From: Methanolinea sp.
GTDB taxonomy: Archaea; Halobacteriota; Methanomicrobia; Methanomicrobiales; Methanospirillaceae
Direction: 5' to 3'
DNA length: 64,000 bases
NCBI GenBank assembly: GCA_024518585.1
Contig: JANIHI010000010.1
Span: forward strand, 1-64,000
Below the pieces are notes generated by a model, which searched no databases, was not told the origin of the DNA, and worked only from the letters and a program-made list of their open reading frames with translations. Shown here piece after piece: positions 1,940 to 61,384 of the stretch. Position 1 is the first letter of the stretch. Each line of letters begins with the position of its first letter. The position numbers and the translations under genes were made by a program.

Positions 1940-4222
1940 ATGATGGGGGAAAAAGACAGAGGGGTGCGGGGAGTCGGGACGAGGCTGCCATTCTCTTACC
2001 TGCTGATGGGCATTCTTTTTGGTATCATCGTCATTGTCGTCATCGCCGGGATCTGGGTCAACTACGAAAACTCGAAGAATAACCTGCAGGGGAATGCCGA
2101 GCGCCTCCGCGCCATGACAGAATCCCACCTCGATAAATCCTTCAGGATGGTTGACACCGGGCTGAAGCTGTACGACAGCACCTATAACGAGGACATGAAG
2201 GAGGCATTCAGGCTCGTGATGGCAGAATATGCCCGGGCCGGGGGGGACCCGTCCCGGATGGACCTGCCCGCACTTAAAAAGGCAATTGGGGGGAAGGACA
2301 TCCATATCATCAATTCCCAGTGCGTCATTGAATATGCCTCCTCCCCCTCTGACGTCGGGCTCGACTTCTCGGTCATTTACCCTGATTTCTGCGCATATCT
2401 CCACAAGATCTGGAACACTCCGGGATATTACCCGGACAGGGTCGTGATGGAATGGCAAACCGGCGCACTCACAAAATATGCCTACATGCCAACACCGGAC
2501 CACCGGTACATCATAGAACTCGGGTTGCGTTCAGAGTCGTTTGCCCGGGAGAGGATGGAACTCAAGTACAGTGACGTCACCGACGAGGTCAAATCATTCA
2601 ACCCCTACCTGGAAGAGGTTCTCCTCTTCCAGAAACAAAAGAGGCTCTTTTACAATACCAGCTACGTCCCCACCCCCGAGGAATCAGCCATGCTCGATTA
2701 CATCCTCTGGGAGAACCGGTCGACACAGGTGGTGAAGGGTGATCCGGGAAAAACCGTCGTCTGGCAGGTAATCGACCTCCGTGACCCTGACTATGCTGCT
2801 GATATGAGCGTCTTTGCAAAACTCACGTTCAACGACGCCCTGCTCGCACAAGAACTGAACAATCTCGCTCTCCTTCACGGCTTCGCGGCAGTGCTCGTGA
2901 TATTTTCAGGGGCGCTTATTGCCGTCATTGTCTCGCGTAAGATCTCCAAGCCGATCGAGAGGCTCGTTGAGGATGTCAATGCCATCGCCGGGGGAGACCT
3001 CGATCATCCCATCAGGCCTGTCGGGGGTTTTGAGTTCTCCACAGTCGCACGGAGCACCCAGGTCATGGTTGACCGGCTGAAAGCCCAGATCCGGCAGTGC
3101 AGGCTGAGCGAGGAGCGGTTCATGAACCTCGTCACCCTCCTCCCCCTGGGGGTGTTTGAGACCGATCTGTCGGGGAACGTGACGTTTGCAAACCCTGTCG
3201 CACTGGAGGTTTTCGGCTACACTCCCGACGACCTCCGGCAAGGAATCAATATTTTCACGATACTGGCTCCCGAAGACCGCCCAAGGGCAAGAGAAAAATT
3301 TGGAGAGATCCTGGAGGGCAAAAGGACCGACGGGTCCGAGTATACTGGCATCAGAAAGGATGGCAGCACCTTCCCCATCATGGTCTATACCTCTGCACGC
3401 ATGGAGGAATGGGCCGTTACAGGCGTACAGGGGACAATTATCGATATGAGCCGGATAAAACGAGCCGAGGAAGAGATACGGCAATTGAACGCAGACCTGG
3501 AACGGCGGGTTTCCGAGCGGACCGCAGACCTCGAGCTCGCTACAAGTGAGATGGAGGCATTTTCTTACTCCGTTTCGCACGACCTGCGGGCCCCGCTCCG
3601 GGCCATTGACGGGTTCTCTCATCTCCTCTCCCGCACTCCCGGGATGGAGTTAGAGGGAAAGGGACAACACTGCCTCGATGTCATCAGGCAGAACGTTGCA
3701 CTGATGGACGACCTGATTGAGGGGCTCCTGGCACTCTCCCGCATGGGCCGCCAGGAACTGAACCGTGAATGGATATCCCCCGGACCGATCGTCCAGGAAG
3801 TTGTTGCAAAAGTCCTTGAACAGGAAACCGGTCGCGAGATCGCTGTCACTGTCGGGACGCTGCCGGACTGTTATGCCGACCGCGTGATGCTCCGCCAGGT
3901 ATTTTCAAACCTCATCGGAAATGCGGTGAAATTCACCCGGCATACTCCGGGGGCCCGGATTGAGATAGGGTCTTTTGAGCAGGATTCGCAGGTGGTATAT
4001 TTCGTCCGGGACAATGGTGCAGGGTTTGAGATGAAGTACAGTACACAACTCTTCAAGCCATTCCAGCGTCTCCACTCGCCTGGCGAGTATGAGGGGTCAG
4101 GTATCGGTCTTGCAATTGTTGAACATATTATCAGGAGGCACGGGGGAAAGATCTGGGCCGAGAGTGAAACCGGCCGTGGTGCAACATTCTTTTTCACAAT
4201 CGGCGGACCTTCTGGCAGGTAG
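1940..4222 (+). CDS. Membrane PAS sensor histidine kinase
   Basis: 760 aa. TM1 spans about residues 17-40 and TM2 about 313-333. The intervening 270-residue extracytoplasmic region resembles a dCache-type ligand sensor. A HAMP linker follows (starting SKPIERLVEDV), then a PAS domain (about 393-510), a coiled coil, a HisKA domain with the phosphoacceptor in SYSVSHDLRAPLRAI (His about 547) and a HATPase_c domain with N-box NLIGNAVKF, G1 box DNGAGF and G2 box GSGIGLAI. It should autophosphorylate in response to an extracellular ligand. No response regulator is adjacent, so it is an orphan kinase and its partner is unknown. Confidence 0.88.
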   Translation: MMGEKDRGVRGVGTRLPFSYLLMGILFGIIVIVVIAGIWVNYENSKNNLQGNAERLRAMTESHLDKSFRMVDTGLKLYDSTYNEDMKEAFRLVMAEYARAGGDPSRMDLPALKKAIGGKDIHIINSQCVIEYASSPSDVGLDFSVIYPDFCAYLHKIWNTPGYYPDRVVMEWQTGALTKYAYMPTPDHRYIIELGLRSESFARERMELKYSDVTDEVKSFNPYLEEVLLFQKQKRLFYNTSYVPTPEESAMLDYILWENRSTQVVKGDPGKTVVWQVIDLRDPDYAADMSVFAKLTFNDALLAQELNNLALLHGFAAVLVIFSGALIAVIVSRKISKPIERLVEDVNAIAGGDLDHPIRPVGGFEFSTVARSTQVMVDRLKAQIRQCRLSEERFMNLVTLLPLGVFETDLSGNVTFANPVALEVFGYTPDDLRQGINIFTILAPEDRPRAREKFGEILEGKRTDGSEYTGIRKDGSTFPIMVYTSARMEEWAVTGVQGTIIDMSRIKRAEEEIRQLNADLERRVSERTADLELATSEMEAFSYSVSHDLRAPLRAIDGFSHLLSRTPGMELEGKGQHCLDVIRQNVALMDDLIEGLLALSRMGRQELNREWISPGPIVQEVVAKVLEQETGREIAVTVGTLPDCYADRVMLRQVFSNLIGNAVKFTRHTPGARIEIGSFEQDSQVVYFVRDNGAGFEMKYSTQLFKPFQRLHSPGEYEGSGIGLAIVEHIIRRHGGKIWAESETGRGATFFFTIGGPSGR

Positions 4223-4715
4223 TACCAGGAAAGTCCTGTAAATGCCGGGACCTCGTATGGTAAGGCATCAAAACATGGAGAACGGGGTCATGGATCGCTT
4301 TGGCATTGTACAACGATATGGCAGCAATCAGGGTGATGGATGGAAGGGAGTGTGCAGAGGAGCTCTGAAAATTGAAGATTGCCTGTATCCACCGTGAGTT
4401 GTGAAACGGAGGCATCCAGGGCAATGGCGAGTAAAATCTGGTATCACAGTGCCTTATCGATAAAAAGGGGAAATGGGGAATCTCATTACCTGGTTTTCAA
4501 ACGAATTGATGCAGAGATGTGCCAGATATTGCACAAGAACCCCATGGAGAGGGTACAGAAATCCTTTCACGCCCTATTCAATCAAATATCGCCTGCCTTT
4601 TCGCGGAAGCCGCCTGTTTCAGAGTCAGGGATGGAGTCAAATCACTCACTTTTCTTCTCCCGTTACAAAGGGTATACTACCTTTCCTTTTCCACTGAGTA
4701 AAAGGAGTGTGTATA
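4223..4715. other. Intergenic region before methyltransferase gene, no gene recognised
   Basis: About 490 bases of lower coding character separate the kinase and the methyltransferase. Several short open frames exist on both strands, but their translations are rich in Ser/Arg/Pro without domain features and I do not call them genes. AAAAGGAG at 4699-4706 is the ribosome binding site of the next gene. No tRNA, inverted-repeat element or CRISPR structure was seen. Confidence 0.45.
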
Positions 4716-5462
4716 GTGGACATCCCACGTATCTTTACCATTTCCGAAAGTGCTCACCGTATCCATAACCCCTTTACACCCGAAAAGCTCGCCACTCTCG
4801 GCAGAGCGTTGCGCCTGGATGCGGGGGCCCGTGTGCTCGACCTCGGCAGTGGTTCGGGCGAGATGCTGTGCACCTGGGCACGCGATTATGGAATCACCGG
4901 TATCGGTATCGATTTGAGCCTGTTGTTTTGCGGGCAGGCGAAACTCCGAGCTGAAGAACTCGGGGTCGCCGACCGGGTCACGTTCATCCACGGCGATGCT
5001 GCGGGCTTCATCGCCGACGAAAAGGTCGATGTGGCAGCCTGTCTTGGTGCTACGTGGATTGGCGGGGGAGTTGCCGGCACCATCGGGCTCCTTCGCAAGA
5101 GTCTCCTCCCCGGGGGAATCATCCTGATCGGCGAGCCCTACTGGCGGCGGTTACCTCCAGCAGAAAACGTTGCCAGGGGATGCGGGGCCAATGCCACCTC
5201 TGACTTTCTCATGCTTCCCGAACTTCTCGCCTCGTTTGGTGACCTTTGCTATGACGTTGTGGAAATGGTCCTGGCCGACCAGGACAGCTGGGACAGGTAC
5301 GAAGCGGCCAAGTGGCTGACCATGCGCCGATGGCTCGATGCGAATCCCGACGACGAGTATGCAAAAGAGGTCCGGGCCACACTGACCCGGGAACCAGTAC
5401 GATACGCTGCATACACGCGCAAATACCTTGGATGGGGGGTGTTCGCGCTGATGGCACGTTGA
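4716..5462 (+). CDS. Class I SAM-dependent methyltransferase
   Basis: 248 aa from the GTG at 4716. The glycine-rich motif I VLDLGSGSGEML near residues 38-49 binds S-adenosylmethionine, and an acidic residue follows at the end of strand 2 (GIGIDLS), as in Rossmann-fold methyltransferases of the Methyltransf_11/25 type. The C-terminus YTRKYLGWGVFALMAR is common in bacterial/archaeal homologues acting on small molecules. An in-frame GTG at 4707 directly abuts the AAGGAG, whereas the GTG at 4716 has a 9-nt spacing, so the latter is chosen. It stands alone between long spacers. The substrate is unknown. Confidence 0.75.
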   Translation: MDIPRIFTISESAHRIHNPFTPEKLATLGRALRLDAGARVLDLGSGSGEMLCTWARDYGITGIGIDLSLLFCGQAKLRAEELGVADRVTFIHGDAAGFIADEKVDVAACLGATWIGGGVAGTIGLLRKSLLPGGIILIGEPYWRRLPPAENVARGCGANATSDFLMLPELLASFGDLCYDVVEMVLADQDSWDRYEAAKWLTMRRWLDANPDDEYAKEVRATLTREPVRYAAYTRKYLGWGVFALMAR

Positions 5463-56362: not shown

Positions 56363-57127
56363 TTAAACCTTACTGGAAACCGCCATATTTTCCATGTGGT
56401 CGAGGACGTACCGCCTGATCCGGGCAAATTCGACACTTGTCCGTTCCCGGGGTCGGGGGAGATCGATGGGAACCACTTCCTGTATCCTGCCGGGCCGGGG
56501 GGAGAGGACGACGATCCTGTCGGAGAGGAAAACAGCCTCGTCGACGCTGTGGGTAACAAAAAGGACTGTCTTCTTTGTCTTTTCCCAGATCTCGAGGAGT
56601 TCTTTCTGCAGCATGTTGCGCGTCTGGGCATCCAGGGCCCCGAAGGGCTCATCCATGAGGAGGATGGCAGGCTCGATCGCCAGTGCCCGGGCAACAGCGA
56701 CACGCTGCCGCATGCCGCCGGAGAGCTCGTACGGGTAGCGGCCGGCAAATTCCCGTAGGCCGACAAGGTCGAGGTAGGAGAGGGCCCGATCCCTCCTCTC
56801 CTCCCCCGCAAGTCCCTTGATCTCGAGGCCGAACTCGATGTTGGCAAGGACCGACCGCCAGGGGTAGAGGGAATACTCCTGGAAGATCATGGCCATCCGG
56901 GGGCTCGGGCCCTCTATCGTCTCTCCGTCAAGGACGATGGTCCCCACTGTCGCCCTCTCGAGTCCCGCCACGATCCGGAGCAGGGTCGTCTTGCCGCACC
57001 CCGAGGGACCGAGGACCGAGACGAACTCGCTGTCAGAGACTTCAAGCGTGATCCTGTCCAGGGCCCTGACTTCCGTGCCGTCCTCGAGAATGAACGATTT
57101 GGATATCCCGTCAAGTTTCAGTCCCAT
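56363..57127 (-). CDS. SsuB/TauB-type ABC transporter ATP-binding protein
   Basis: 254 aa. Walker A GPSGCGKTT, Q-loop MIFQEYSLYPW, signature LSGGMRQRVAVARAL, Walker B AILLMDEPFGALD. The order belongs to the nitrate/sulfonate/taurine/HMP group. ATG 57127 is used; frames upstream fall within the permease. It powers the permease and binding protein that follow in the operon order. Confidence 0.88.
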   Translation of the reverse strand: MGLKLDGISKSFILEDGTEVRALDRITLEVSDSEFVSVLGPSGCGKTTLLRIVAGLERATVGTIVLDGETIEGPSPRMAMIFQEYSLYPWRSVLANIEFGLEIKGLAGEERRDRALSYLDLVGLREFAGRYPYELSGGMRQRVAVARALAIEPAILLMDEPFGALDAQTRNMLQKELLEIWEKTKKTVLFVTHSVDEAVFLSDRIVVLSPRPGRIQEVVPIDLPRPRERTSVEFARIRRYVLDHMENMAVSSKV

Positions 57128-57155: not shown

Positions 57156-57920
57156 TCATCGTTCGAGCTCCCGCCAGGAGAACCACCTCCTCTCGACCCT
57201 CTTGAAGACCAGGTCAATGGCAAGCCCGATGAGGCCGATGACGACCATTCCCGCGATAATGAGGTTGGTCTGTCCAAAGTTGTAGGCATACAGGATGAGG
57301 TACCCGAGCCCCTGCGAGATCCCCGGCAGCCACTCCGCCGCAACGACACACATCCAGGCTATGCCAAAGCCGACGCGGAGACCGGTCCACACGGTGGGGG
57401 CCGCTCCCGGCAGAACGACCTTTGTGAGGATCTGCCTCTCGCTGGCTCCAAGCGTCGTTGCGACCTCGACCCAGGTCTTCTTGACGGCCCGGACACCATC
57501 GACCGTGTTGAGGAGGATCGGGAAAAAAGCCCCGATGAAGATGATGAAAACGATCGATGTCAGCCCGATCTTGAACCACGCAAGGGCCAGGGGAACCCAT
57601 GCGAGGGGCGGGATGGGCCGGAGCAACTCGATGGGGGAATCGAGGAGGTCGGTGAGGGCCACTGACCTCCCCATCAGGATACCGAGGGGGATGGCGATCG
57701 AGGCCGCGAGGAGGAAACCGAGCCCGACACGCTGGATGCTGGCAAACGCATTCTCAAGGAGGCTCCCCGTCCCAAGGGTGTACGTCATGCTCATCGGGTT
57801 GGCGAGGATGGGGACGACCGTGGTGAGGGAGGGCAGGATGAATGGGTTTGCGATGAAGTATGCCGCAAGCTCCCAGGCTGCCACGAGGAGGAGGGGGAGG
57901 AGGACCCTGTGATACCTCAT
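57156..57920 (-). CDS. SsuC/TauC-type ABC transporter permease
   Basis: 254 aa with six helices. The EAA-loop region GASERQILTKVVLPGAAPTVW contacts the ATPase, and GFGIAWMCVVAAEWLPG is conserved in this family. The gene begins 12 nt after the binding-protein stop and is followed, 28 nt on, by the ATPase. The substrate class (sulfonate, nitrate, thiamine precursor or similar) is not determined. Confidence 0.88.
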   Translation of the reverse strand: MRYHRVLLPLLLVAAWELAAYFIANPFILPSLTTVVPILANPMSMTYTLGTGSLLENAFASIQRVGLGFLLAASIAIPLGILMGRSVALTDLLDSPIELLRPIPPLAWVPLALAWFKIGLTSIVFIIFIGAFFPILLNTVDGVRAVKKTWVEVATTLGASERQILTKVVLPGAAPTVWTGLRVGFGIAWMCVVAAEWLPGISQGLGYLILYAYNFGQTNLIIAGMVVIGLIGLAIDLVFKRVERRWFSWRELER

Positions 57921-57932
57921 TGTCCCCTACTG

Positions 57933-59144
57933 TTAGCCTTCCCTGACAGATAAACCACTTGCTTCGAGGGAGTAGCGGAGCATGACGTCCTGGATGGACC
58001 CCTTGCCGGGTGCAGCTATCTTGAGGGGTTTTCCTGCCACTGACCGCTCTTTTGCCCAGGCAACGAAGCTTGCCCAGTCCGTTGCGGGTGAAGACTTCGA
58101 CACGACGACGCCTGAGCCTTCCTCGTTAACTGCCATGACAATCTTGACCGGTGTCCCCTTGTCAGCGGCAGCAATTGCCGGCGGGTTTCCGACCAGGGCA
58201 TACTGGATGTTCCCGGTGGACATGAGCTGCATGAGCTGGGGACCGGCATCACCCGAGACCAGTTTCAACTCGGCAACGGGCTGGCCGTTCACGATGAGGT
58301 CCGCGGTGTCAGGGCGGGAGGCTGCAAGGTCCCGGGGCCTGATCGCGATACCGTAGGTGTCATTGAAGTACTGCCACTTCTTGATTGCTACAAAGAGGGC
58401 CGCGTGGTGGTCGGACATCAGGTATCCCACACCGATGGGCCCCTTTGCCGGCCGGGGGGTGACAAAAGATCTCTTGTCCACCATCGCCTTTGCCGCGTCG
58501 TAGGGTGTGGAATCGAAGAGGATGGAGAGCGACTCCTGGTCGGTCGAGTTCTGGAGCGAGCCGGTGAGGACGCCAAGCTCCCGCTGGGCATAGACAAATT
58601 CGAGGTTTGATCTCTTCCACTCGTCTGTTGGTTCATTGACAAACTTCACGGTGGGGAATGCGCGGGCAAGCACCTCAACGGAAGAGACGGAGATGTTCCC
58701 GTAGGTGAAATTGCCCTTTCCGGCCAACCAGTCGGCAACGAGTTCGGCACTTTCATCCGGGTTCTTCTCCAGGTACTGCGTTGCGAGGATCAGGCTTGCT
58801 GTCAGTGCATTGGTGATATCCGGCGAGCCGGAGATGGCATCGGCCCTGGCGGTGAAGACACAGCAGGGGTGGTTCTTCCACCGCCCTGCCGGCGGCAGGT
58901 CACCGGAGTAGACCAGGACTTTCCCGATGTTTGCAAGGGGGGGCACCTCGACGAACGGCTGCCAGGCGATGTACCCGTCGATTTGGTCTGTTCCAAGGAG
59001 CGTCGGCATCGGGCCGGTGCCCTTCGTGTACGTGACGATGACAGTTTCACCGGAAGCAGCAGGTGGTTTTTCCGTGACACACCCCGACAGCAGGACCCCG
59101 CAGAGGAGCAGGCCCACGAAAAGGGGGAGGAGGATTCTTTTCAT
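57933..59144 (-). CDS. SsuA/NMT1-like substrate-binding lipoprotein with permuted lobes
   Basis: 403 aa. Signal peptide ends in LLSGC (Cys22). In normal SsuA/NMT1 proteins the N-lobe (GYLxxDHHAxL...GNPPAI...GKGSIQDVMLR) comes first and the C-lobe (QIDGYIAWQPF...NHPCCVFTAR...) second. Here the C-lobe segment is at residues 33-195, and the N-lobe segment, VGYLMSDHHAALFVAIKK to APGKGSIQDVMLRYSLEASG, is at residues 237-403. Nothing else follows before the permease start 12 nt later. The gene therefore looks circularly permuted. The substrate is unknown; the ABC partners fit this family. Confidence 0.8.
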   Translation of the reverse strand: MKRILLPLFVGLLLCGVLLSGCVTEKPPAASGETVIVTYTKGTGPMPTLLGTDQIDGYIAWQPFVEVPPLANIGKVLVYSGDLPPAGRWKNHPCCVFTARADAISGSPDITNALTASLILATQYLEKNPDESAELVADWLAGKGNFTYGNISVSSVEVLARAFPTVKFVNEPTDEWKRSNLEFVYAQRELGVLTGSLQNSTDQESLSILFDSTPYDAAKAMVDKRSFVTPRPAKGPIGVGYLMSDHHAALFVAIKKWQYFNDTYGIAIRPRDLAASRPDTADLIVNGQPVAELKLVSGDAGPQLMQLMSTGNIQYALVGNPPAIAAADKGTPVKIVMAVNEEGSGVVVSKSSPATDWASFVAWAKERSVAGKPLKIAAPGKGSIQDVMLRYSLEASGLSVREG

Positions 59145-59331: not shown

Positions 59332-59862
59332 ATGAAGGGAGATCCCCTCGATAAAGTGATCAAGGCGGCACTTGTCTCCGACGAGGAGTTTTCAACGACC
59401 CTCCGGGACGTCATGCGCCACGACCTGCGGATCAGCATCAGGGAGCTCTCGTCCATGAGTGGTATTGCCCAAAGTTCCCTCTACAAGATCGTGCACGGCC
59501 AGAGGTCCCCCAACCTCTCCACCCTCCGGGCAATTATTGGGGCGATGAAGAAGATCGTGCAATCCCCGCAGGGAGAGTTCATCGGTCTCATTGCGGCCCG
59601 CCCCGTCCTCGATGTCATCCAGGAGAGGAATGCCCTCGTCGACGGCAAGAAAGTCACCGTCAGGGAATACCCCGTCCATACCATGGAGGAGGCGATCATC
59701 GGTGCCCTGCGGGCAGAGAGGGAGGGGGCAATTGCCATCGTCTGCGCGCCGATCGTCAGCAGCGTCATCGAACAGATCGTCAGCGTCCCGGTTGCCACCA
59801 TCATCCCCCGGGAATCGGTCCAGAGGGCGATTGAACTGGCCGCCAGGAAAGCATGGATTTAA
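59332..59862 (+). CDS. XRE-type HTH transcriptional regulator
   Basis: 176 aa. Residues about 33-70 (ISIRELSSMSGIAQSSLYKI, VHGQRSPNLSTLRAIIGAMK) form an XRE helix-turn-helix. The C-terminal part (KKVTVREYPVHTMEEAIIGA, AIAIVCAPIVSSVIEQIVSV, VATIIPRESVQRAIELAARK) is a compact alpha/beta domain without a recognised ligand motif. It is divergent from the SsuABC-type operon; I infer it regulates that operon. It also sits 31 nt upstream of argH, on the same strand. Confidence 0.7.
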   Translation: MKGDPLDKVIKAALVSDEEFSTTLRDVMRHDLRISIRELSSMSGIAQSSLYKIVHGQRSPNLSTLRAIIGAMKKIVQSPQGEFIGLIAARPVLDVIQERNALVDGKKVTVREYPVHTMEEAIIGALRAEREGAIAIVCAPIVSSVIEQIVSVPVATIIPRESVQRAIELAARKAWI

Positions 59863-59893
59863 TCTCCCGCCTTTCCCATTGTTGAGCAAGGGA

Positions 59894-61384
59894 ATGGATA
59901 GGATGGCAGAGGACGTTGTGCGTCGGGGACGCCTCAGCGGGGAACGGAGCGGCGAGATGGTCCATTTCCTCTCGTCGATGGATGCAGACCGCTGTATCGC
60001 GGATGCAGATATCCTGGTGGACATCGCCCACGTGCTGATGCTCTCCCAAAAGAGGATCATCGAGAGGAAGACTGCACAGGACCTCCTGGCAGCACTCCTC
60101 GATCTCTACGATAACGGTATACCGGAAAGCGTGTTTGACGAGAGGTTCGAGGACGTGCATGCCGGGATAGAGTCCTACCTCATTGCAAAGATCGGCGAGG
60201 AGACGGGCGGCAGGCTTCACATCGGGCGCTCGCGCAACGACGAGGTCGCGACATGCCTCCGCATCCGGGTCCGCGAGGACGTCACGCGCCAGCTCTCGAT
60301 CCTCCTTGGTCTCCGGCAGGTGCTCCTTGCACGTGCAGAGGAGCATGGTACGACTGTCATGCCGGGGTTCACCCACCTCCAGTATGCCCAGCCCACCACG
60401 CTCGCTCACCACCTGCTCTCCCACGAGGCGGCATTTGCCCGTGACTGCGAGAGGCTCAGGGAGGCGTTCTCCCGCATCAACAGGTGCCCGCTGGGGTCAG
60501 CGGCATTTGCAACGACGTCCTATCCCATCGACCGGGAACTTTCCGCCTCGCTCCTGGGGTTTGATAGTATCCTCGAGAACACGATGGACGCCGTCTCCTC
60601 GCGCGACTTTATCCTGGAGCTCCTCGCTGACCTCTCGATCCTGATGGCCCATGCAAGCCGCCTCTGCGAGGAGCTCGTGGTCTGGAGCTCGTCCTTTGCC
60701 CGGTTCGTTGAACTCGGGGATGCCTTCTGCTCAACAAGTTCCATCATGCCCCAGAAGAAGAACCCGGACAGCGCCGAGGTAATGAGGGCTAAGGCAGGAT
60801 CAGTCCTGGGGGCGACAGTCTCTGCATTTACCATCCAGAAAGCACTCCCCCAGAGCTACAACCGGGACCTCCAGGAGATGACCCCCGCCCTCCTCCGGGG
60901 GATCCAGGACGCAAAACACAGCACCCGGATCCTCGCAGACATGCTCTCATCGGCATCTTTTCATTCTGATCAGATGGCCGCAGAGGCAGGCAAGGGCTAT
61001 TCAACGGCTACTGACCTTGCAGACATGCTCGTCCAGAAGCACGGCATGCCGTTCCGGACAGCCCACACGCTGGTCGGAAAGGCCATCCGGAAAGGATCAC
61101 TTACTCTTGCAACCCTTGATGCAGTGGCCACCGAGGAAGGGTTCGTGCGACCGTCAGACCTCGGGGTCACCCCTGACGAGATCACTTCTGCCCTCGATGT
61201 CTCCCAGAGTATCGATCGCCGGCGGGCCCCCGGGGGTCCCTCCCCCTTCGCGGTCAAAATATCCCTTGCCAACCGGTGGAAGGCCCTGGAGGATGAAAAA
61301 AAGATGCTCGAAGAGAGGAGGGCTGCCCTGTCAGGGGCGGTCGCCCGGTTGATCAGCGATGCCCGGAAAGAGGTGTCCCGGTGA
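59894..61384 (+). CDS. argH: Argininosuccinate lyase
   Basis: 496 aa of the fumarase/aspartase superfamily. RLHIGRSRNDEVATCLRIRV, TVMPGFTHLQYAQPTTLAHH, and the signature loop STSSIMPQKKNPDSAEVMRA with its catalytic Ser. It splits argininosuccinate to arginine and fumarate. The ATG at 59894 has AAGGG upstream. The stop overlaps the gatD GTG by 4 nt. Confidence 0.93.
   Translation: MDRMAEDVVRRGRLSGERSGEMVHFLSSMDADRCIADADILVDIAHVLMLSQKRIIERKTAQDLLAALLDLYDNGIPESVFDERFEDVHAGIESYLIAKIGEETGGRLHIGRSRNDEVATCLRIRVREDVTRQLSILLGLRQVLLARAEEHGTTVMPGFTHLQYAQPTTLAHHLLSHEAAFARDCERLREAFSRINRCPLGSAAFATTSYPIDRELSASLLGFDSILENTMDAVSSRDFILELLADLSILMAHASRLCEELVVWSSSFARFVELGDAFCSTSSIMPQKKNPDSAEVMRAKAGSVLGATVSAFTIQKALPQSYNRDLQEMTPALLRGIQDAKHSTRILADMLSSASFHSDQMAAEAGKGYSTATDLADMLVQKHGMPFRTAHTLVGKAIRKGSLTLATLDAVATEEGFVRPSDLGVTPDEITSALDVSQSIDRRRAPGGPSPFAVKISLANRWKALEDEKKMLEERRAALSGAVARLISDARKEVSR

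Follow-up and report, generated by a model that had tools for sequence, protein, structure and literature searches.

The DNA analysed here (the window) is a stretch of 64,000 nucleotides from a Methanolinea sp. genome. It contains an ABC transporter operon in which one gene (57933..59144, minus strand; ORF, profile matches, alignments and an AlphaFold2 model) encodes a 403-residue SsuA/NMT1-type substrate-binding lipoprotein (SBP) with a permuted sequence. Residues 1-22 (59079..59144, minus strand) form a signal peptide with a lipobox (..LLSGC) that ends in Cys22. It was recognised in the sequence, in the AlphaFold2 model, which places a helix at residues 5-20 and a low-confidence linker at 23-28, and in the alignment of relatives, where the LSGC lipobox is kept in most rows. 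Twelve nucleotides (57921-57932) lie between the SBP stop and the start of an ABC permease gene (57156..57920, minus strand; BPD_transp_1, PF00528, 96.1 bits). An ABC ATPase gene (56363..57127, minus strand; profile match) comes next, for which we take the ATG at 57127 as the start and not the longer ORF. The ORF position, the lipobox and the 12-nt gap had been given correctly in an earlier, sequence-only reading of this DNA. The protein has the features expected of an SBP, namely an export signal with a lipobox and an adjacent ABC permease and ATPase. A divergent HTH regulator gene adjoins it (59332..59862, plus strand; PF01381). Because homologues of this regulator stand divergently beside many archaeal SBPs, permuted and ordinary-order alike, the transporter operon looks homologous throughout.

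In ordinary relatives three segments follow one another as X-Y-Z, whereas the window SBP reads Z-X-Y. Segment Z, residues 33-235 (58440..59048, minus strand), corresponds in profiles and alignments to the second half of ordinary SBPs and carries the motifs QIDGYIAWQPF and WKNHPCCV. Segment X, residues 236-350 (58095..58439, minus strand), corresponds by the same evidence to their start (GYLMSDHHAALF ... EGSGVVVS), and segment Y, residues 351-403 (57936..58094, minus strand), matches the start of their lobe II in the model and the segment profiles (GKPLKIAAPGKGSIQDVMLRYSLEASG). The new C-terminus falls in segment Y, and the former C- and N-termini are joined near residues 225-236.

Within segment Z, residues 92-95 (about 58860-58871) are an invariant His-Pro followed by a nearly invariant Cys-Cys (NHPCCV). 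This motif is common to the permuted relatives and is also seen in ordinary ones, and vicinal cysteines are unusual for an SBP. A contact between Cys94-Cys95 and a thiol ligand was considered; nothing was found in its support, and it is not claimed.

Profile searches recover the family in pieces. PF13379 matches the window SBP at 93.6 bits, well above its cut-off of 24.7, yet the match falls into two stretches. The best one pairs residues 45-140 with profile positions 163-251 (of 252), while the N-terminal region of the profile aligns with the C-terminal part of the protein. PF09084 pairs residues 293-357 with its positions 23-88. The match to TIGR01728 is likewise split in swapped order and scores 70.3 bits, under the subfamily cut-off of 163.5. 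When PDB chains were searched by profile, TauA (6ssy) and 3un6 were matched by the window SBP in two swapped stretches and by ordinary-order relatives in one. Rotating the protein back in silico, with residues 236-403 placed before 33-235, gave a single PF13379 stretch (residues 4-276 on profile 10-251) of 104.9 bits and brought TIGR01728 to 80.2 bits, still under its cut-off. The same operation on a distant relative, L044, turned two PF13379 stretches into one and raised the score from 119.5 to 132.0 bits.

We also aligned each half separately with the halves of seven ordinary-order relatives, using 200 shuffles each. Residues 33-235 gave z of 18-39 with the second half of these proteins and at most 1.3 with the first, so the N-terminal part does not align best to the first half of ordinary SBPs. 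For residues 236-403 the first half yielded z of 15-35 and the second no more than 3.0. Pairwise alignment thus favours the swapped pairing of halves (z 15-39 versus at most 3.0), as the sequence-only reading had proposed. The window SBP is a permutant descended from the PF13379 family and not an ordinary member of it, and we regard it as almost certainly a natural circular permutant of the SsuA/NMT1-type family.

AlphaFold2 predicts one compact fold for the window SBP and not two independent domains (mean pLDDT 93.1, pTM 0.87; 39 sequences); for the ordinary-order relative L140 the values were 89.3 and 0.83. The elements of the two models (E, strand; H, helix) were paired by eye from their secondary-structure lists, without superposition. 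The early elements of L140 (E55-59, H63-73, E84-88, H92-100, E106-110, H111-120, E124-131, E135-140, H148-151, E155-157, H164-175) have counterparts in the same order in the window SBP (E237-242, H245-255, E288-298, H301-309, E315-319, H320-328, E333-338, E344-349, H357-369, E374-378, H384-395), and its later ones, E185-187 to H341-344, correspond to E34-39 to H213-224. With Foldseek the L140 model found SsuA (2x26; E 1.8e-19, TMt 0.85) among 1279 hits at E<=0.001. The sequential search with the permuted model gave 2 hits at this threshold, none comparable to SsuA, as a rotation predicts. The top sequential fold hit of the window SBP, OpuAC, was rejected as a relative (TM 0.32/0.45, rmsd 12), being no real match.

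In the type II SBP topology the lobes do not simply equal the two sequence halves. It is the sequence halves that are swapped here, and not simply the lobes, as had been proposed. Nor does the gene end at the junction of the lobes, as first read: the coding sequence stops past the first helix of lobe II (helix 384-395; strand 399-402 follows). By the known type II topology the cut would lie inside lobe II, after this helix. Lobe I would then run in one piece and lobe II be divided, and the lipid anchor at the N-terminus would have shifted from lobe I to lobe II. The hinging of the lobes and the docking on the permease may have changed, as the sequence-only reading suggested.

The arrangement is widespread. 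Thirty-eight colinear relatives were aligned with the window SBP. Identity to it among colinear relatives is highest in Methanomicrobiales (50-82%), falls to 34-39% in Methanothermococcus and Methanothrix (labelled Methanosaeta) and is 25-30% for Archaeoglobales and for three MAGs, whose labels are Thermoplasmata, Euryarchaeota and Bacillota. The search for orthologues with the same order thus found dozens in archaea. Three segment profiles assigned Z-X-Y to 114, X-Y-Z to 62 and Y-Z-X to 2 of 178 loci. Because these loci were picked for their similarity and are in part redundant, the counts are not frequencies. Lobe order had been taken to be fixed in this family, but among these similarity-chosen loci 114 share the swapped order. 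The window's genome comes as 27 contigs, perhaps assembled from a metagenome, and each of the two Y-Z-X cases comes from a single genome, which could raise the suspicion of an assembly or gene-calling artefact. The window order, however, recurs in the 38 aligned relatives and on complete, single-contig chromosomes (CP121470, Methanoregula; G248; G154), and the protein is under strong purifying selection, with dN/dS of about 0.07-0.12 against four orthologues (synonymous sites are saturated for a fifth). For the window SBP the probability of an artefact is negligible.

Two observations concern the distribution of the operon. On the contig labelled Bacillota (L050) the Z-X-Y SBP is nested among archaeal ones, from either mis-binning or gene transfer. 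Beside argH (59864-61384 in the window), some Methanomicrobiales carry operons with permuted SBPs and others ordinary-order operons (loci compared: L158-L160 and L162-L164 versus L004, L009 and L032). The ordinary-order operons near argH belong to a different permease clade, and the pattern suggests whole-operon replacement or differential loss.

In a tree of the re-rotated sequences the Z-X-Y proteins split into two groups. The first comprises Methanomicrobiales, Methanothrix and Methanococcales and adjoins ordinary-order genes of family f14, which is probably Methanocella-like; the second comprises Archaeoglobales and others and adjoins ordinary-order Asgard genes. None of 200 bootstrap trees united the two groups. 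AU tests on quick trees, for a group set from the order label before the tree, rejected a single Z-X-Y clade with the full-length sequence (p 0.005) and with the X-Y part (p 0.006). The adjacent permease, which is not permuted, separates the groups too, its tree placing the second with ordinary-order Asgard operons (98%) and apart from the first (97%). The main counter-argument is that the cut sites of the two groups coincide to within a few residues, as would be expected if the order arose once and tree error split one lineage. Moreover, one clade was not rejected with the Z part alone (p 0.37) and was rejected weakly with the permease (p 0.083). We consider a single origin rather unlikely on this evidence, and two origins of the Z-X-Y order are favoured, although not proven.

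A second breakpoint, at the crossing from lobe I to lobe II, is found in two SBPs from the same kind of operon, L137 (locus positions 3746-4753, plus strand) and L139 (3936-5081, minus strand), each assigned the order Y-Z-X by segment profiles and each known from one genome. Gene order at L137 is conserved with the ordinary-order loci L138 and L140; compared with the gene at L140, the two pieces of the L137 SBP show 70% and 84% identity. In L139 the signal peptide and a PGF-CTERM-like tail have kept their places at the ends, and the domain between them is rotated. The joint is similar to the former C-terminal tail of the ordinary-order L146, and the other classified sequences of its family, f10, are of ordinary order. 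The trees favour four independent permutation events in one transporter family. We tentatively propose, as one possible reading, that the SBP was permuted at least four times. Two breakpoints would have been reused, and each event would have transferred the tether from lobe I to either lobe II or the hinge. Such a convergent change, which may be adaptive, would affect the way in which a tethered SBP works with its permease.

The conversion of an ordinary X-Y-Z protein into Z-X-Y would most simply have proceeded by a tandem gene duplication, after which the outer pieces were lost. The signal peptide and lipobox would have been retained in front of the rotated domain, and the rotated chain would still build one two-lobed fold. 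This route, already suggested in the sequence-only reading, receives indirect support from the joints of the younger cases. In both L137 and L139 the joint still holds stretches that resemble the former C-terminal tail and the N-terminal linker, and the signal peptide has been left at the end, as has the PGF-CTERM-like anchor in L139. Duplication intermediates were sought in two long ORFs of family f10, L232 (1170 aa) and L233 (819 aa), and none was found; each holds one ordinary-order SBP plus other sequence and was rejected as a tandem duplicate. In L232 (3318-6827, minus strand) the SBP domain follows a repeat-rich region of about 750 residues that looks NosD-like by eye, and in L233 (2142-4598, plus strand) it precedes long C-terminal extensions with a proline/threonine-rich linker.

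Complementary pieces joined by a short linker would also result if two truncated SBP genes had been fused, the C-terminal half coming from one and the N-terminal half from the other. When each half is given its own tree, however, the permuted proteins fall into two groups that are the same in both trees. The relatives matched by one half are also those matched by the other, and a single ordinary gene, the L137 orthologue of a congener, shares 70-84% identity with both parts of L137. Such a chimera is therefore very improbable, and because the trees of the two halves are similar we favour rotation of one gene over fusion of two. Alignments, back-rotation, predicted fold, orthologues and trees all agree with the proposed natural circular permutation that kept the ABC operon.

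The genes around some relatives bear on the ligand, which we propose to be coenzyme M (CoM, 2-mercaptoethanesulfonate) or a close sulfonate. At L139, genes for cysteate synthase (TIGR03844, 528 bits versus a cut-off of 325) and sulfopyruvate decarboxylase (ComDE; TIGR03845, above cut-off) lie between those for the permease and the ATPase, and at L144, L147 and L157 CoM genes stand upstream of the SBP. This association, found at no more than five loci from about three unrelated families, is suggestive and carries no statistic. With its HTH regulator, SBP, permease and ATPase, the window operon resembles the CoM importer reported in methanogens, but no CoM genes stand beside the SBP within the window. 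The window's genome (96.5% complete) contains a single PF13379 gene and encodes McrA (methyl-CoM reductase). Neither it nor any of five further genus members that were sampled yielded a ComD, no cysteate synthase scores above the family cut-off in the window's genome and genus (G000, G013, G086, G145, G277, G321), and ComE is above cut-off in 1 of 13 genus genomes, which is not the window's. From their sequences these methanogens look like CoM auxotrophs, and an unrecognised CoM pathway in the window's genome is possible. Because McrA is encoded and the late enzymes of CoM synthesis were not recognised, uptake of CoM or a close sulfonate appears probable. Binding would close the lobes and hand the ligand over to the neighbouring permease, in the manner of ordinary SBPs.

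The permutation could be real and the ligand another, such as taurine, another alkanesulfonate, nitrate or bicarbonate, as for SsuA/NrtA/CmpA-type SBPs. The sequence matches include TauA, NrtA, CmpA and SsuA, and the order also occurs in Archaeoglobales and a Bacillota-labelled MAG. In addition, compared with ordinary forms the proteins of the window's group carry insertions of some tens of residues, and for that reason their ligand may have drifted. Against this stand the CoM-biosynthesis genes in or near the operon in several lineages, none of which was recognised in the window's genome, and the response of M. acetivorans ssuA/ssuC, a 'CoM-specific ABC transporter', which is up with cs and comDE on CoM starvation (PMC12068725). 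The accessible part of a paper on inhibitor resistance in Methanococcus maripaludis contains nothing on a sulfonate transporter (PMC8479958). We think a ligand other than CoM unlikely, though not strongly so. The permutation itself is not tied to auxotrophy, because ordinary-order SBPs also occur in genomes without ComD (e.g. G049, G116, G183). As a whole, the explanation that the gene encodes the anchored SBP of an SsuABC-type importer, a natural permutant with CoM or a close sulfonate as its ligand, is in our judgement likely.

Natural circular permutants often come to light only when distant structures are compared, whereas here both orders occur in the same kind of operon. The apparently young L137 and its congener's ordinary orthologue, at 70-84% identity, allow direct tests of how a permutation proceeds and of what it costs or brings. 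Sequential profile and fold searches see such proteins piecewise or miss them. If the ligand is CoM, methanogens predicted to be CoM auxotrophs would depend on this protein for its uptake.

Over most of its length the window SBP is, after rotation, homologous to SBPs of the SsuA/TauA type (PF13379, PF09084, TIGR01728; PDB 2x26, 6ssy). Like them it is exported and accompanied by an ABC permease and ATPase; unlike them (X-Y-Z) it reads Z-X-Y, with new termini predicted inside lobe II. L153, presumably the M. acetivorans homologue, is of ordinary order, whereas the window SBP is permuted. The CoM importer SsuABC reported in methanogens (PMC12068725; PMC10658910) and the window transporter are both encoded in SsuABC-type methanogen operons; the link to cs and comDE is seen for the window's kind of operon in the relatives L139, L144, L147 and L157 and not in the window. 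TpMglB-2 (Tp0684) of Treponema pallidum, a naturally permuted 'Type Ic/Cluster Bc' SBP whose authors speculated on membrane anchoring (PMC4990184), is likewise a membrane-anchored natural circular permutant, but it is bacterial, has a Type I glucose-binding fold and is cut at another breakpoint; the PDB sequence relatives of the window SBP are of the TauA/SsuA/NrtA kind and not of the Type I (cluster B) sugar-binding fold. Circular permutation among SBPs was also found by structure comparison for the glycine-betaine binders OpuAC (2b4l) and ProX (1r9l, 1sw1) (CPSARST, PMC2395249), which belong to another ligand family and share under 24% identity. A literature search that covered few subscription papers found no report of permutation in the SsuA/NMT1 family. 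Permuted SBPs were already known, and it is the likely recurrence of permutation within one operon family that is the most unusual feature here.
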